Positions 54,254-64,000 of a stretch of 64,000 nucleotides of DNA are shown here, piece by piece. Made by a program: the position numbers and the translations under genes. The notes under the pieces are model-generated. The model was given only the letters and a program-made list of their open reading frames with translations. It was not told the origin of the DNA and ran no database searches. Numbering within the stretch: position 1 is the first letter of the stretch; every line of letters begins with the position of its first letter. Location: NCBI RefSeq assembly GCF_001083785.1, contig NZ_LAVL01000007.1, forward strand, positions 62,001 through 126,000. The letters run 5' to 3'. The DNA is from Nonomuraea sp. SBT364. Its GTDB lineage: Bacteria > Actinomycetota > Actinomycetes > Streptosporangiales > Streptosporangiaceae.

Positions 54254-54595
54254 GTGGAACCGCTGCAGATCCTGGAGTGCGGCCCGCCGCTGGTGCGCGA
54301 GGAGCTGGACGCCGTCCAGAGCGCCGAGATCGCCCGCGTGTTCAAGGCGCTGGGAGACCCGGTGCGGCTGCGGATCCTGTCGATCGTGGCCGCCCGGCAG
54401 GGCGGTGAGGCGTGCGTGTGCGACATCACCGACGCCTTCGACCTGACCCAGCCCACCATCAGCCACCACCTGAAGGTGCTCAAGGACGTCGGCCTGCTCA
54501 CCTCCGAACGGCGCGGCATCTGGGTCCACTACCGGCTCGTCCCCGGGACGCTGTCGCGCCTGTCCGCCCTGCTCGACGTTCCGGCCACGGTCTGA
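54254..54595 (+). CDS. arsR: Arsenic-responsive repressor ArsR
   Basis: A 113-residue repressor from GTG 54254. The As(III)-binding Cys pair is in EACVCDITDAF, at the start of the DNA-recognition helix, and the recognition helix is LTQPTISHHLKVLKDVGLL. A further Cys near the N-terminus (ECGPPL) may act as a third ligand. It dissociates from DNA when arsenite binds. First gene of arsR-acr3-arsC. Confidence 0.93.
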   Translation: MEPLQILECGPPLVREELDAVQSAEIARVFKALGDPVRLRILSIVAARQGGEACVCDITDAFDLTQPTISHHLKVLKDVGLLTSERRGIWVHYRLVPGTLSRLSALLDVPATV

Positions 54596-54604
54596 CCTGC
54601 GAGG

Positions 54605-55717
54605 ATGGAAGCGATGTCGTCACGTACCGACCGCACTCAGGAGCCCGCGGAGGAGGCGACCACGGCCGTCGTCGGCCGGTTGCCGGTCCTGGACCGGTTC
54701 CTGCCGGTGTGGATCATCGCGGCGATGGCGGCCGGGCTGCTGCTCGGCCGGACCGTGCCGGGCCTGAACACCGGACTGGAAGCCGTCAAGATCGGCGAGA
54801 TCTCCCTGCCCATCGTGCTCGGGCTGCTGCTCATGATGTACCCGGTGCTGGCCAAGGTCCGCTACGACCGGCTCGGCACCGTCACCGGCGACCGGCGCAT
54901 GCTCCTCGCCTCCCTGGTGCTCAACTGGATCGCCGGACCGGCGCTGATGTTCGCCCTGGCCTGGACCTTCCTGCCCGACCTGCCCGAATACCGCACCGGC
55001 CTGATCATCGTCGGTCTCGCCCGCTGCATCGCCATGGTCCTCATCTGGAACGACCTGGCCTGCGGCGACCGCGAGTCGGCCGCCGTCCTCGTCGCCCTCA
55101 ACTCGATCTTCCAGGTGGTCGCGTTCGGCGCGCTCGGCTGGTTCTACCTGGAGGTGCTGCCCGACCGGCTCGGCCTCTCCCAGGCCGCGCTCGACGTGTC
55201 GATGTGGGACATCGCCCAGTACGTCCTCATCTTCCTCGGCATCCCCCTGCTGGCCGGCTACCTGTCACGCAGGCTCGGCGAACGCGCCAAGGGCCGCGAC
55301 TGGTACGAGAGCCGCTTCCTGCCACGCGTCGGCCCGCTCGCCCTCTACGGCCTGCTGTTCACCATCGTCATCCTGTTCGCCCTCCAGGGCGACACCATCA
55401 CCTCCCAGCCCGCCGACGTGGCCCGCATCGCGCTGCCGCTGCTCGCCTACTTCGTCCTCATGTGGGGTGGCTCGTTCCTGACCGGCCGCGCCATCGGCCT
55501 GCCGTACGAGCGCACCACCACGCTCGCCTTCACCGCCGCCGGCAACAACTTCGAGCTCGCCATCGCCGTGGCCGTCGGCGTCTTCGGCGTCACCTCCGGC
55601 CAGGCGCTGGCCGGAGTCGTCGGCCCGCTCATCGAAGTGCCCGTCCTGGTCGCCCTCGTCTACGTCAGCCTGGCCGGCCGCCGCCTGTTCCGCAGCAAGG
55701 GGATCACCCATGCCTAG
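54605..55717 (+). CDS. acr3: Arsenite efflux permease Acr3
   Basis: A 370-residue protein of the bile/arsenite/riboflavin transporter superfamily with ten membrane segments. The diagnostic Acr3 pattern is seen in RCIAMVLIWNDLACGDRESAAVLVALNS, with its essential Cys, and in YERTTTLAFTAAGNNFELAIAVAVG. It exports arsenite using the proton motive force. It follows arsR by 9 bases and overlaps arsC by 8. The start at 54605 or 54614 is open. Confidence 0.95.
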   Translation: MEAMSSRTDRTQEPAEEATTAVVGRLPVLDRFLPVWIIAAMAAGLLLGRTVPGLNTGLEAVKIGEISLPIVLGLLLMMYPVLAKVRYDRLGTVTGDRRMLLASLVLNWIAGPALMFALAWTFLPDLPEYRTGLIIVGLARCIAMVLIWNDLACGDRESAAVLVALNSIFQVVAFGALGWFYLEVLPDRLGLSQAALDVSMWDIAQYVLIFLGIPLLAGYLSRRLGERAKGRDWYESRFLPRVGPLALYGLLFTIVILFALQGDTITSQPADVARIALPLLAYFVLMWGGSFLTGRAIGLPYERTTTLAFTAAGNNFELAIAVAVGVFGVTSGQALAGVVGPLIEVPVLVALVYVSLAGRRLFRSKGITHA

Positions 55718-56138
55718 CGTCCTGTTCGTCTGCGTGCACAACGCCGGCCGCTCCCAGATGGCCGCCGGCTGGCTCACCCACCTGGCCGGCGACCGCATCG
55801 AGGTCCGCTCGGCCGGGTCCGCGCCCGCCGGCCAGATCAACCCGATCGCCGTCGAGGCCATGGCCGAGGTCGGCATCGACATCACCACCGCCCAGCCGAA
55901 GATCCTCACCACCGATGCCGTCCAAGCCTCCGACGTCGTCATCACCATGGGCTGCGGCGACGCCTGCCCCGTCTTCCCCGGCAAGCGCTACGAGGACTGG
56001 AAGCTCGACGACCCCGCCGGCCAGGGCATCGAGGCGGTACGCCCGATCCGCGACGAGATCCGCGACAGGGTCGAAAAGCTGGTCGACGAGCTTCTCGCGC
56101 ACGCGAGAGGCGGCGCGGACGCCCAGCCGTCACGCTGA
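55710..56138 (+). CDS. arsC: Arsenate reductase ArsC (low-molecular-weight phosphatase type)
   Basis: A 142-residue enzyme. The P-loop VCVHNAGRSQMAAGW holds the first Cys, and MGCGDACPVFPGKRYEDWKLDDP holds the redox Cys pair. This group reduces arsenate to arsenite with thioredoxin or, in actinomycetes, mycothiol/mycoredoxin. Product goes to Acr3. It is last in the operon; CTGCCCG/CGGGCAG directly after the stop could form a weak terminator. Confidence 0.93.
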   Translation: MPSVLFVCVHNAGRSQMAAGWLTHLAGDRIEVRSAGSAPAGQINPIAVEAMAEVGIDITTAQPKILTTDAVQASDVVITMGCGDACPVFPGKRYEDWKLDDPAGQGIEAVRPIRDEIRDRVEKLVDELLAHARGGADAQPSR

Positions 56139-60174: not shown

Positions 60175-60789
60175 TCATCGGGACGCCTCCGCGTCGCCCA
60201 TCTGTTTGACGAAGTGCCCGCGGCAGTGGGGGCAGCAGAAGCCGTAGGTCCGCCCATCGCGCTCCAGCATGACGGCCTCTTGTAGCGGGACCGTGGCGCC
60301 GCACACGGGATCGACGACCATGTCGTCGGCGACCGGCGCCGCAGGGCCGCTCTTGGCCTGCTCGATCAGCGCCAGGACGTCGGAGGAGCGCTGGGGCCGC
60401 CCGTGCAGGCCGTAGGCGCCCTCGGGCAGGCTGATGACGTGCACCACGGCCCGCGGCTCGGGATCGCCCGCCGCCTGAGCCAGTTCCGCGGTGATGCGGG
60501 AGACGAGGTGCTCGCTCATCTCCTTTCCCCACATCCCGACGATCACGTTCACCACGAACCAGGGGCCCTGCGCGGGGTCGAGCAACCGGCCGCCGGCGAT
60601 CCACACCTCCTCCTCGCGCACCACCACATGGGAGAGCGAATCGAACAGGTCGATCACACCGGGATCGGCGGCCATCGTCTCTCCGTTCGCGGACGACAAC
60701 AGACGCCGCGCGCTCAGCCGCAAGGCGAGGCTTCGGCGCTCTCGCTCATCGAAAACACCTCTGGGCACCAGTAGCTCGACAAAGAGCAT
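60175..60789 (-). CDS. YHS-domain protein with a tautomerase-like N-terminus
   Basis: A 204-residue protein. The N-terminal 130 residues resemble the tautomerase/MIF fold (FVELLVPRGVF, VNVIVGMWGKEMSEHLV) but lack the Pro at position 2. The C-terminal YHS domain shows DPVCGATVPLQEAV and YGFCCPHCRGHFVKQM, with cysteines suited for metal binding. YHS domains occur in copper and heavy-metal proteins. Found beside an efflux gene but on the opposite strand. The combination is uncommon and the function unknown. Confidence 0.75.
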   Translation of the reverse strand: MLFVELLVPRGVFDERERRSLALRLSARRLLSSANGETMAADPGVIDLFDSLSHVVVREEEVWIAGGRLLDPAQGPWFVVNVIVGMWGKEMSEHLVSRITAELAQAAGDPEPRAVVHVISLPEGAYGLHGRPQRSSDVLALIEQAKSGPAAPVADDMVVDPVCGATVPLQEAVMLERDGRTYGFCCPHCRGHFVKQMGDAEASR

Positions 60790-61189
60790 CCTCGGTCCGT
60801 CCTTTCGAAGAGGGTCGATCCGCGGAAATGCTTTCGCACCGGCGGCCCCGCCGTCGTCACCCGGGAGACGGCTTTCCCGGCTACCTCGCCGGTCGTAGCG
60901 GGCAGCCGCGCTACGACGGCAGGAGTAGCGCGGCGCGTTCCGTACGGGCATCGGTGTGCGATTCACAACTCCACGCGGCCATTGACATGAAGACATAGCC
61001 ATGGTTCGAGTTTTATTCTGCCCAATCGCACCGCAACTCAACTGTTGCGAAAATCGTTTTGCGCCTCCTATATTAACCGGGCTGCCTTTCGATAAGTCCA
61101 TTGAAGACGGGGCGTCGAGTCCATTTGGGCCCACCCTTAAATGACGTGCCAGGCCCCTCGAACAATTGCCGTGAAATGAGGAGATCAGT
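60790..61189. other. AT-richer leader region of the trp-type operon
   Basis: No gene is visible in these 400 bases. Composition falls in GC between about 60960 and 61080. A TTGCGA/TATATT promoter lies at 61045-61074, leaving a leader of about 110 bases. The leader has a TGGGCCCA palindrome near 61120 but no run of tgg codons, so I see no tryptophan attenuator. Confidence 0.55.
61045..61074 (+). promoter_or_regulatory. Sigma-70-type promoter before the aminotransferase-trp genes
   Basis: TTGCGA (61045-61050) and TATATT (61069-61074) with an 18-base spacer. It is the best such pair in the 400-base gap. GAGGAG precedes the ATG at 61190. Confidence 0.55.
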
Positions 61190-62209
61190 ATGACGTGGGA
61201 GACCGGGCACCCGTGGCTGCCTTCGGTCGCGGTGTCGCGATGCGTCGGCGACGGCACCGGTTACGAGCCGCCCAAGCTGACGGCGAACGCCGTCGGAAAC
61301 CTGGCGGAGTTCAGCGCGGACGGGATCCAGTTCGGGTTCTCGGTCTTCGAAGGGATGCGCGTCTTCGTCACGGATCCGGCGTTCCTCGTCTTCCGGGCGC
61401 GCGACCACCACGAGAGGCTGAGGGTCTCGTGTGCGGCGCTCGCCCTGCCCTGCCCGGCGTACGACGTGTTCGTCGAGGCCGTCGGACGGGTGGTGCGGGC
61501 CAACTGGGACGGCAGCGCGACGCGCCTGTACGTCAGGCCCGTCGTGTTCGCGGCAGGCGGCGACGTCATGCCGCAGCGGAGCCGCAAGTACGTCTTCGCG
61601 GTCCTGGTGAAGAGGTTCGATCCCGTCCTGGACGGCATGGGCGTCCTCGTCGAGGAGTGCATGCCGCGGACGGTTCCGATGCTGGCGGCCGTCAAGACCG
61701 CCGGCAACTACACGAGCTCCGCGCTGGCGACGCGGAACGCCCGCGAGACGGGATGCGACACGATCCTGTGGCTCGACGACAACGGCTGCCTCCAGGAGTG
61801 CACGACCATGAACGTGTTCCTGTGCCTCGGCGGTCAGATCGTCACCCCGAGACTCGGCTCGATCCTGCCCGGCATCACCCGCCGGACCGTGCTGGACCTG
61901 CTGGCCGGCATGGGCGAGCGGGCGGTCGAACGGGACATCCGCCTGTCCGAGGTGACCGACGCGCTCGTCCGGCGGGAGGAGCTGTGCATGTTCGCGACGT
62001 CCACCGCGCTCGGCATCCAGCGGGTGACGCGTCTGCGGCTGGGCTCCGGCGACCACCTGCTCGACGGGAAGGTGCCGCGTACGTGGAGCCGCGTCGAGGA
62101 GCAGTACGCGTGGGTGACGGAGCGGTTCACCGAAGCGAACGGCTCGTACCCGGCCATCGTGTCGCGTTCTCATCGCGGCGACGTGCGTGCCCGCTACGGA
62201 TTGGATTGA
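61190..62209 (+). CDS. Class IV PLP aminotransferase (branched-chain aminotransferase-like)
   Basis: A 339-residue enzyme. FGFSVFEGMRVF opens the fold, the PLP Lys is in MLAAVKTAGNYTSSAL, and LQECTTMNVFL carries the Glu that contacts the cofactor. LPGITRRTVLDLL and TSTALGIQRVTRL are also family-specific. BCATs transaminate Val, Leu and Ile; relatives form D-amino acids or act in secondary metabolism. Placement just before trpBA suggests a role on a tryptophan-related keto acid or a non-proteinogenic amino acid (inference). Gap of 113 bases to trpB. Confidence 0.85.
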   Translation: MTWETGHPWLPSVAVSRCVGDGTGYEPPKLTANAVGNLAEFSADGIQFGFSVFEGMRVFVTDPAFLVFRARDHHERLRVSCAALALPCPAYDVFVEAVGRVVRANWDGSATRLYVRPVVFAAGGDVMPQRSRKYVFAVLVKRFDPVLDGMGVLVEECMPRTVPMLAAVKTAGNYTSSALATRNARETGCDTILWLDDNGCLQECTTMNVFLCLGGQIVTPRLGSILPGITRRTVLDLLAGMGERAVERDIRLSEVTDALVRREELCMFATSTALGIQRVTRLRLGSGDHLLDGKVPRTWSRVEEQYAWVTERFTEANGSYPAIVSRSHRGDVRARYGLD

Positions 62210-62307
62210 CGCGATCCGACGGCTCGTAAAGCCGATAAAGGCAATCGCGGATGGATTCGCGGAGACACGCGGCCTTCCGCGCGCCGTGACCGGCCTTCTC
62301 GCTTCTG

Positions 62308-62313
62308 TAATAG
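62308..62313 (+). promoter_or_regulatory. Possible -10 box directly before trpB
   Basis: TAATAG lies 9 bases before the GTG start, and there is no ribosome site. A leaderless trpB transcript from its own promoter is therefore likely. Confidence 0.4.
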
Positions 62314-62322
62314 CCTGGCCCG

Positions 62323-63519
62323 GTGTCCTCGCAGATTACCGGTCCCTACTTCGGTGAATACGGCGGCCAGTTCGTGCCGCAGATCCTCGTAGAGCCCCTC
62401 CGCCAGTTGGAGAAGTGCTTCGTCGACGCCTGGTCCGACCAGGCGTTCAGGGAGGAATACAGCACCCTCCTGAGGGAGTACGCCGGGCGGCCGACGTCGC
62501 TGACCCGGGTGCGCAACCTGACCGAGGGCACCAGGACCCGGCTCTACCTCAAGCGGGAGGACCTGCTCCACGGCGGCGCGCACAAGACCAACCAGGTGAT
62601 CGGCCAGGCGCTGCTCACCAAGCGGATGGGCAAGTCCTCGATCATCGTCGAGACCGGCGCCGGCCAGCACGGTGTTGCGTCCGCCATCGCGGCGGCGCTG
62701 TTCGGGCTGAAGTGCCGCATCTACATGGGCCGCGTCGACACCGAGCGGCAGCAGCCCAACGTGGAGCGGATGCGGCTGCTCGGCGCCGAGGTGATCCCGG
62801 TCGATTCGGGGTCACGCACCCTGAAGGACGCCTGCAACGAGGCCCTGCGCGACTGGTCGGGGTCCTACATGGACAGCCACTACGTGCTGGGCACCGCGGC
62901 CGGGCCGCACCCGTACCCGACCATCGTGCGGGAGTTCCAGCGGGTGATCGGCGACGAGGCTCGGGCGCAGATCCTGGAGCGGGAGGGCCGGCTGCCCGAC
63001 CGGGTGGTCGCCTGCGTCGGCGGCGGCTCCAACGCGATCGGCGTGTTCACCGCGTTCGTGCCGGACGAGTCGGTGGAGCTGGTCGCGGTCGAGGCCGGTG
63101 GGCACGGGGTCGACACCGGCAAGCACGGCGCGTCCATCGGGAAGGGCGAGCCGGGCATCTTCTTCGGCATGCGCTCCAGGCTGCTGTCGGACCCCGATGG
63201 GCAGATCTTCGAATCGCACTCGATCTCGGCCGGTCTCGACTTCCCGTCGGTCGGCCCCGAGTTGTCCTACCTCGTCGACTCGGGCAGGGTGCGCTGTGAG
63301 TCGGCCACCGACGACGAGGCCGTCGGCGCGTTCGTGGCGCTGACCAGGCGCGAGGGCATCATCCCGGCGCTGGAGAGCTCGCACGCGCTGGCGTTCGCGC
63401 TCAAGGAGATCCGCTCCGAGCCCGACAGGGAGCAGGTGGTCGTGGTCAACCTCTCGGGCCGGGGCGACAAGGACCTCGCCACCGTGACGTCATACCTTCA
63501 GGAGAAGGGGGAGCTCTGA
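62323..63519 (+). CDS. trpB: Tryptophan synthase beta chain, proteobacterial-like
   Basis: A 398-residue PLP enzyme joining indole and serine to tryptophan. The PLP Lys is in [18 protein letters not shown], followed by [14 protein letters not shown], the phosphate loop [10 protein letters not shown] and [10 protein letters not shown]. Several blocks match the enterobacterial type closely: [34 protein letters not shown] and [18 protein letters not shown]. The usual actinobacterial form has HTGSHKINN and GPHPFP. This suggests horizontal transfer and a dedicated pathway role. GTG start, likely leaderless. TGATG overlap with trpA. Confidence 0.93.
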
Positions 63520-64000
63520 TGAGCCGCTACGCCGCGATGTTCGAGTCGGCCCGGGCCGACGGCAGGGCGCCGGTGATGGCCTGGTCGGTCGTCGGCGACC
63601 CGACCCCGGAGGCGTGGCTGGACGTCGTCGACGCGGTGGTCTCCGCCGGGGCGTCGGCGCTGGAGCTGTCGCTCGCGTTCTCGGACCCGTCCGCGGACGG
63701 GCCGGTCAACCAGGACGCCTACACCCGGGTGCTCGGCAAGGTGGACAAACACCGCACCTTCGCGCTGATCAAGCAGGTGCGCGAACGGTATCCCGAGCTG
63801 CCCATCGGGTTGATGACCTACGCGAACCTGGTCTACACGCCTTCCCCGAAGGTGTTCTACGCCGCGTGCGCCGCGGCGGACGTGGACTCGGTGCTGGTCG
63901 CCGACGTGCCGGTGCACGAGGCCGGGATCTTCCGCGGCGTGGCGGCCGCACATGGCATCGAGGTGGTGCTCATCGCGCCGCCCAACGCGCGGGAGGCCGA
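63519..64000 (+). CDS. trpA: Tryptophan synthase alpha chain (5' part)
   Basis: The first 160 residues are inside the window. ATG at 63519 overlaps the trpB stop by one base. The two catalytic acids are kept: Glu in ALELSLAFSD and Asp in PSADGP. The usual GIPFSDPLADGP box, however, reads SLAFSDPSADGP, with Gly, Pro and Leu replaced in loop 2. LMTYANLVYTPSPKVFYAACAAADVDSVLVADVP is otherwise standard. The chain frees indole from indole-glycerol phosphate. The changed loop may affect rate or substrate. It runs off the right edge. Confidence 0.9.
   Translation, partial: MSRYAAMFESARADGRAPVMAWSVVGDPTPEAWLDVVDAVVSAGASALELSLAFSDPSADGPVNQDAYTRVLGKVDKHRTFALIKQVRERYPELPIGLMTYANLVYTPSPKVFYAACAAADVDSVLVADVPVHEAGIFRGVAAAHGIEVVLIAPPNAREA

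Follow-up and report, generated by a model that had tools for sequence, protein, structure and literature searches.

The window, a stretch of 64,000 nucleotides from the soil actinomycete Nonomuraea sp. SBT364 (positions 62001-126000 of contig C339, NZ_LAVL01000007.1, in an assembly of 10 Mb and 361 contigs), carries at its right edge a tryptophan synthase gene pair, trpB and trpA, of proteobacterial type, preceded by the gene of a class IV aminotransferase (AT). The ancestry of TrpB lies in the gamma-proteobacteria, the genome holds a separate housekeeping trpBA, and TrpA combines conserved catalytic residues with a changed indole pocket. We give a probability of roughly one half to the reading that the pair is dedicated to making tryptophan or an analogue of it, gained by transfer and tied to an accessory pathway around the AT. 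The three genes lie where the initial annotation had placed them, with the motifs it quoted, and are intact open reading frames (ORFs) on the forward strand, in the rightward order AT (61190..62209; 339 aa, branched-chain-like, with the catalytic-type Lys169 in KTAGNY), trpB (62323..63519; 398 aa, GTG start) and trpA (63519..64000). The last has 160 of its codons inside the window and its stop 322 bases past the edge, at contig position 126322 (L003:6323), the full TrpA being 267 aa long.

TrpB scores 598 bits against the NCBIfam trpB model TIGR00263 (curated cut-off 392.45). When aligned to Salmonella TrpB, it shows the stretch HKTNQ, with the pyridoxal phosphate lysine, and the loop ETGAGQHG. 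The enterobacterial likeness noted at the outset is borne out: the top match in the PDB is Salmonella TrpB (1k8x, 8e-183), and the protein is 68% identical to TrpB of E. coli. The use of GPHPYP versus GPHPFP to diagnose this likeness had to be given up, because the orthologue of Nonomuraea lactucae has GPHPFP and an actinobacterial-type paralogue in another genome of the family (G058) has GPHPYP.

In a tree of 85 rows out of 119 hits (some paralogues and short rows omitted, Corynebacterium thinned), the TrpB of the window and of N. lactucae form a pair (support 100/100) nested in a set of 23 rows with support 99/97, of which the other 21 are E. coli, Aeromonas, Aliivibrio, Shewanella, sixteen Succinivibrionaceae/Aeromonadales and, on a long branch, Tremblaya. 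The best tree of a 30-row set likewise joins the pair with 8 gamma-proteobacterial rows (97/96). For this set, the approximately unbiased (AU) test rejects a clade of the pair with 10 normal actinobacterial TrpB rows (p 0.0007), and with it both membership of the housekeeping type and vertical actinobacterial inheritance. A clade with 5 Corynebacterium/Dermabacteraceae rows is rejected more weakly (p 0.011, with groups chosen after the first tree), and so is a transfer event shared with Corynebacterium trpB. The TrpB trees support the transfer that had been proposed and place its ancestry in the gamma-proteobacteria. A long stem leads to the pair (0.74 in TrpB, 1.64 in TrpA), so the donor is not close to any of the rows compared. 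Private changes affect 6 of 146 conserved TrpB positions, a number exceeded by three of 113 rows; one of them is Ala to Val immediately ahead of the catalytic-loop glutamate.

A scan of species genomes, which detects close kin only and of which the best 80 of 170 matches were kept, gave a single TrpB relative above 70%, that of N. lactucae NEAU-YG30 (93%), and a search of 341 genomes of the family gave TrpB matches at 1e-150 or better in the window's own genome alone. Within those scans, proteobacterial-type trpBA occurs in Streptosporangiaceae in the window strain and N. lactucae only. Among plasmid records (best 20 of 112), the closest TrpB relative was an enterobacterial TrpB at 69%; relatives of the AT on plasmid records were distant only.

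TrpA belongs to its family by profile (256 bits against TIGR00262, curated cut-off 102.35), is 40% identical to E. coli TrpA and falls on the proteobacterial side of its tree (100/100, 23 of 33 rows). The alignment shows Glu49, Asp60, Tyr175, Thr183, Gly184, Phe212, Gly213, Gly234 and Ser235 retained; the catalytic roles of Glu49 and Asp60 are described in passages of PMC6608616, which also count the Phe22-equivalent residue among the positions of the TrpA pocket. The pocket has been altered at four positions (Phe22Trp, Gly51Ser, Pro53Ala and Ile64Asn), all in common with N. lactucae, so that neither protein has the ordinary indole pocket (Phe/Tyr22, Gly51, Pro53, Ile64). These states are nearly private to the two species: leaving out rows L082, L105 and L139, Trp22 is found in 0/101 other rows, Ser51 in 0/108, Ala53 in 1/108 and Asn64 in 0/108. 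The altered loop 2 reported in the initial annotation is confirmed and takes in position 64. In the excerpted text of PMC13091236, Ile64 of Salmonella TrpA is within the hydrophobic, indole-binding pocket, and that of PMC6635532 lists Phe22 with residues around the tunnel, lining the site. Further departures (e.g., at positions 18, 19, 71 and 110) are likewise common to N. lactucae. There are 32 TrpA positions with a conservation of 95% or more; the window protein differs at 8 of them and that of N. lactucae at 7, for a median of 0 among 111 rows. From this pattern we infer that the substrate of TrpA may have changed relative to the ordinary enzyme.

The AT meets the family model PF01063 with 113 bits (cut-off 28.5), which together with Lys169 makes it a member of class IV. 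It shares the YxR and FEG motifs and the catalytic lysine with branched-chain aminotransferases such as Mycobacterium BCAT (3ht5) and IlvE, but its best PDB match is just 2e-26, and it reaches the curated cut-off of none of the listed branched-chain transaminase models: the scores of 110.9, 136.1 and 144.5 bits against TIGR01122, TIGR01123 and PRK13357 (cut-offs 245.55, 250.05 and 307) do not make it an IlvE. Close relatives (67-74%) occur in 4 other genomes among the 341 of the family, and a search of 394 genomes sampled from the class found them in members of the same family only; at 1e-45, no relative was found in G137, G146, G165, G171, G183 and G065.

These relatives are part of a larger gene set. 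In N. lactucae, an operon at L013:3103-9820 has the order BtpA, cytochrome P450, AT, GTP-cyclohydrolase-II-like protein, Rieske ferredoxin and BenE (on the opposite strand), followed by trpB and trpA. The AT and trpBA are linked in both species, directly adjacent in the window and three genes apart in N. lactucae, with protein identities of 82% (AT), 93% (TrpB) and 83% (TrpA). The operon also occurs in four further genomes (G040, G044, G058 and G061; loci L098-L105). The P450-AT-cyclohydrolase-Rieske core is conserved in all four and BtpA and BenE in three; the 24.5 kb of G061 that were read showed neither. The trpBA pair is directly beside the operon in N. lactucae only and in none of the four; G058 has an actinobacterial-type second trpBA some 21 kb from it. 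A second trpBA as a marker of the operon was considered and fell: an additional trpA does lie elsewhere in G040, G044 and G058, though not in G061, but many genomes of the family have two trpA matches (see below). This set of BtpA, P450, AT, cyclohydrolase II variant, Rieske protein and BenE is present in five Streptosporangiaceae genomes and matched to no described pathway. The P450 carries an N-terminal hydrophobic stretch; sequence searches of the PDB gave no relative of it at 1e-10 and none of BtpA at 0.001. The N. lactucae cyclohydrolase-II-like protein, aligned to 2bz0, retains both the cysteines of zinc type and the Asp-Arg pair, and its RQEGR-type stretch is altered. In G061, a gene for an AraC-type regulator fused to a phosphonate/NMT1-like binding domain (L100:10911-12560) lies shortly upstream of the P450 gene.

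Literature searches gave nothing recognisable as an account of the operon or of this trpBA pair. None was found on N. lactucae NEAU-YG30, and those on trpB transfer in Nonomuraea, on second trp copies in Streptomyces clusters and on transfer of the Corynebacterium trp operon gave no lead. The match for the BtpA/P450/cyclohydrolase/Rieske set, PMC7109123, deals in its excerpted text with 8-azaguanine and is of no help on the operon.

The DNA of the window retains traces of this operon. Homology to N. lactucae covers the AT (87%), trpBA (89%) and a 38-base piece (61044-61081) that lies upstream of the P450 gene in N. lactucae. Within this piece is a promoter-like site, TTGCGA-18-TATATT (61045..61074, forward strand), whose 3' end is 116 bases ahead of the AT start; the search of 60800-62400 found this one site for 0.2 expected. 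Its spacing is identical in N. lactucae, and similar sites occur in G040 and G044 (spacings counted by eye). The homology breakpoints and the shared site point to a loss of the P450 gene that once separated the promoter from the AT, and of the cyclohydrolase-Rieske-BenE block that stood ahead of trpB, after the AT. In the simplest history, the window AT would now be preceded directly by the operon's promoter, its former neighbours having been lost. Neither the window nor its right flank has relatives of the P450, cyclohydrolase, Rieske, BenE and BtpA proteins; for the last three, this was the extent of the search. A P450 orthologue was not found in the rest of the genome either, in one search without a positive control, though the same protein found kin in four stretches; the sole cyclohydrolase II match in the genome is 37% identical and sits in a frame of 418 aa, the size of RibBA. 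The three remaining genes are under purifying selection, with ratios of nonsynonymous to synonymous substitution (Ka/Ks) relative to N. lactucae of 0.29 (AT), 0.12 (TrpB) and 0.30 (TrpA). No known RNA element matched 60500-64000 at E <= 1.

A second, canonical trpBA had been predicted in this genome and was found, as a normal trpC-trpB-trpA locus on contig C134 whose TrpB and TrpA are 57% and 29% identical to those of the window. The pair is thus a copy beyond the housekeeping one, as are the trp genes of natural-product clusters, but it lacks the further trp genes that accompany these. The absence of trpC, trpD and trpE around it, remarked upon in the initial annotation, extends for trpC to the whole genome, where the single gene of indole-3-glycerol-phosphate synthase (IGPS) is at the housekeeping locus; among the flanking ORFs that were read there was no trpD or trpE, and no profile search was made for either. 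The tailoring genes (P450, cyclohydrolase, Rieske) are beside the pair in N. lactucae and not in the window, where the contig ends to the right. Nine other second copies read in the family are of two actinobacterial kinds, the window copy being a third. One kind lies beside a GntR-type regulator gene, so named from translations (six family genomes; L145-L148, L151 and L152), and the other stands alone in the same genus, its TrpB and the housekeeping one being 71% identical (L150, L153 and L154); L155, read alongside them, is a housekeeping locus.

Among known systems, the pair shares the gene order trpB-trpA and the catalytic residues with the enterobacterial TrpA2B2 complex (Salmonella/E. coli, 1k8x), but it is a second copy in an actinomycete, with no adjoining trpC, no other trp gene seen there, and changes at TrpA positions 22, 51, 53 and 64. 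The enteric-type trpBA of Corynebacterium, Dermabacteraceae and their kin also encodes a proteobacterial-type TrpB in actinobacteria, on a separate branch from that of the window. The enteric-type trpBA of Corynebacterium is part of the housekeeping trp operon, itself acquired by transfer. The other second copies read in Streptosporangiaceae, GntR-linked or stand-alone, share the family but are of actinobacterial type. Extra trp genes are also kept with accessory biosynthesis genes in the hapalindole, ambiguine and welwitindolinone clusters, which according to passages of PMC4236562 contain trpABCDE paralogues; those clusters combine five trp genes with genes for prenyltransferase and isonitrile formation, whereas the window has only trpBA and the AT.

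We propose the following scenario. A gamma-proteobacterial trpBA would have moved into a Nonomuraea-like lineage and landed downstream of the accessory operon, which in other genera of the family has no trpBA next to it. The lineage of the window would then have lost the P450 and the cyclohydrolase-Rieske-BenE block, leaving promoter, AT, trpB and trpA. TrpA would cleave indole-3-glycerol phosphate, or a more polar relative favoured by the Asn64/Trp22 pocket, to give indole or an analogue, which TrpB would couple with serine; the AT might convert the resulting tryptophan-type amino acid to and from its alpha-keto acid and so feed a later step, although no such step was found. The order of gains and losses, the direction of transamination, the substrate and the product are all inferred. 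Dedication to a pathway, already put forward in the initial annotation, is partly supported, by the operon around the pair in N. lactucae and by the pocket changes that the two species have in common. A bolder version, which we think improbable, is that the synthase was re-tuned to a polar aromatic substrate made by the operon itself (e.g., a nitrogen-rich bicycle via a cyclohydrolase-II-like step and a BtpA-type barrel); the outcome would be a new amino acid resembling tryptophan, which the AT would turn into its keto acid; that the cyclohydrolase-II-like protein could supply a nitrogen-rich ring is conjecture.

Several observations weigh against the proposal of a dedicated, transferred synthase. 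The partner genes are gone from the window, and with one trpC in the genome, there is no dedicated IGPS. The AU-test clades were defined after the first tree had been inspected, and the TrpA tree leaves the position inside the proteobacterial side without resolution. Two Anaerobiospirillum rows (and no others) depart more from the conserved TrpA positions, at 15 and 11 of them. The TrpA/TrpB distance ratio to 13 gamma-proteobacterial rows is 2.50 for the window and 2.39 for N. lactucae, against 2.33 among those rows, and a general acceleration of TrpA relative to TrpB, looked for with these ratios, was not found. Finally, 121 of the 341 family genomes and 46 of the 54 of the genus (the window's own included) have two trpA matches, as counted by eye, twice, from a listing in which a split gene would score as two, so duplication alone is ordinary.

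This frequency of second copies (the nine others read in the family being of two other kinds), the conserved TrpA catalytic residues and the lack of an additional trpC all suit a tryptophan synthase that is simply a second copy under different regulation and raises the tryptophan supply, with functionally weightless pocket changes and an incidental AT. We regard this as rather unlikely, though a serious contender: the pair is linked to the same AT gene in both species, and several near-invariant pocket positions have changed together and are identical in both across a Ks of ~0.3. It is improbable that AT-trpBA is a remnant serving no pathway and on its way out after the loss of the P450, cyclohydrolase and Rieske genes. 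Such decay would agree with the absence of these partners and of BenE and BtpA from the sequence searched, and with the Ka/Ks of the AT, which is higher for the window than for N. lactucae (0.39 vs 0.25 to G040; 0.32 vs 0.25 to G061). Yet the three ORFs are intact, the promoter-like site is retained, and Ka/Ks is far under 1. In an alignment of six ATs the window departs at 10 otherwise invariant columns and the other five at 3 to 21, so decay of the AT was rejected for want of any excess. The concentration of changes in TrpA (8 and 7 of the 32 positions in the two species, versus 6/146 in TrpB) could also mean that it is a poor lyase and a mere allosteric partner of TrpB, which would take free indole or another nucleophile. 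One row of the proteobacterial set lacks Glu49 and one Asp60, so decayed TrpA does exist among relatives; the window TrpA keeps both and the seven other residues named with them above, and we find this the least credible of the explanations.

If the proposal of a dedicated, transferred synthase is correct, this would be a natural tryptophan synthase that moved between phyla and had the indole pocket of its alpha subunit altered while the chemistry residues stayed unchanged. Most of the known engineering of tryptophan synthase targets the beta subunit, and a natural alpha-site variant could thus give new indole or tryptophan analogues.

A biosynthetic cluster had been expected at the right edge, and this was rejected for the sequence at hand: the contig ends at 127390, 1390 bases past the window, and the flank holds a PknB-like protein kinase gene alone, after trpA and truncated by the contig end. 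That the cluster was not seen there follows from this contig end. No non-ribosomal peptide synthetase, halogenase or prenyltransferase was recognised among the proteins put through family searches, which were part of those encoded by the flanking genes. To the left of the AT are genes that look unrelated, all named from their translations: on the reverse strand, a protein that begins with a tautomerase-like part and ends in a YHS-like part of metal-binding type (60175-60789); a transporter; a SulP-like protein; and an arsenic-type set of a small regulator, an Acr3-like transporter and a reductase-like protein (54254-56138).

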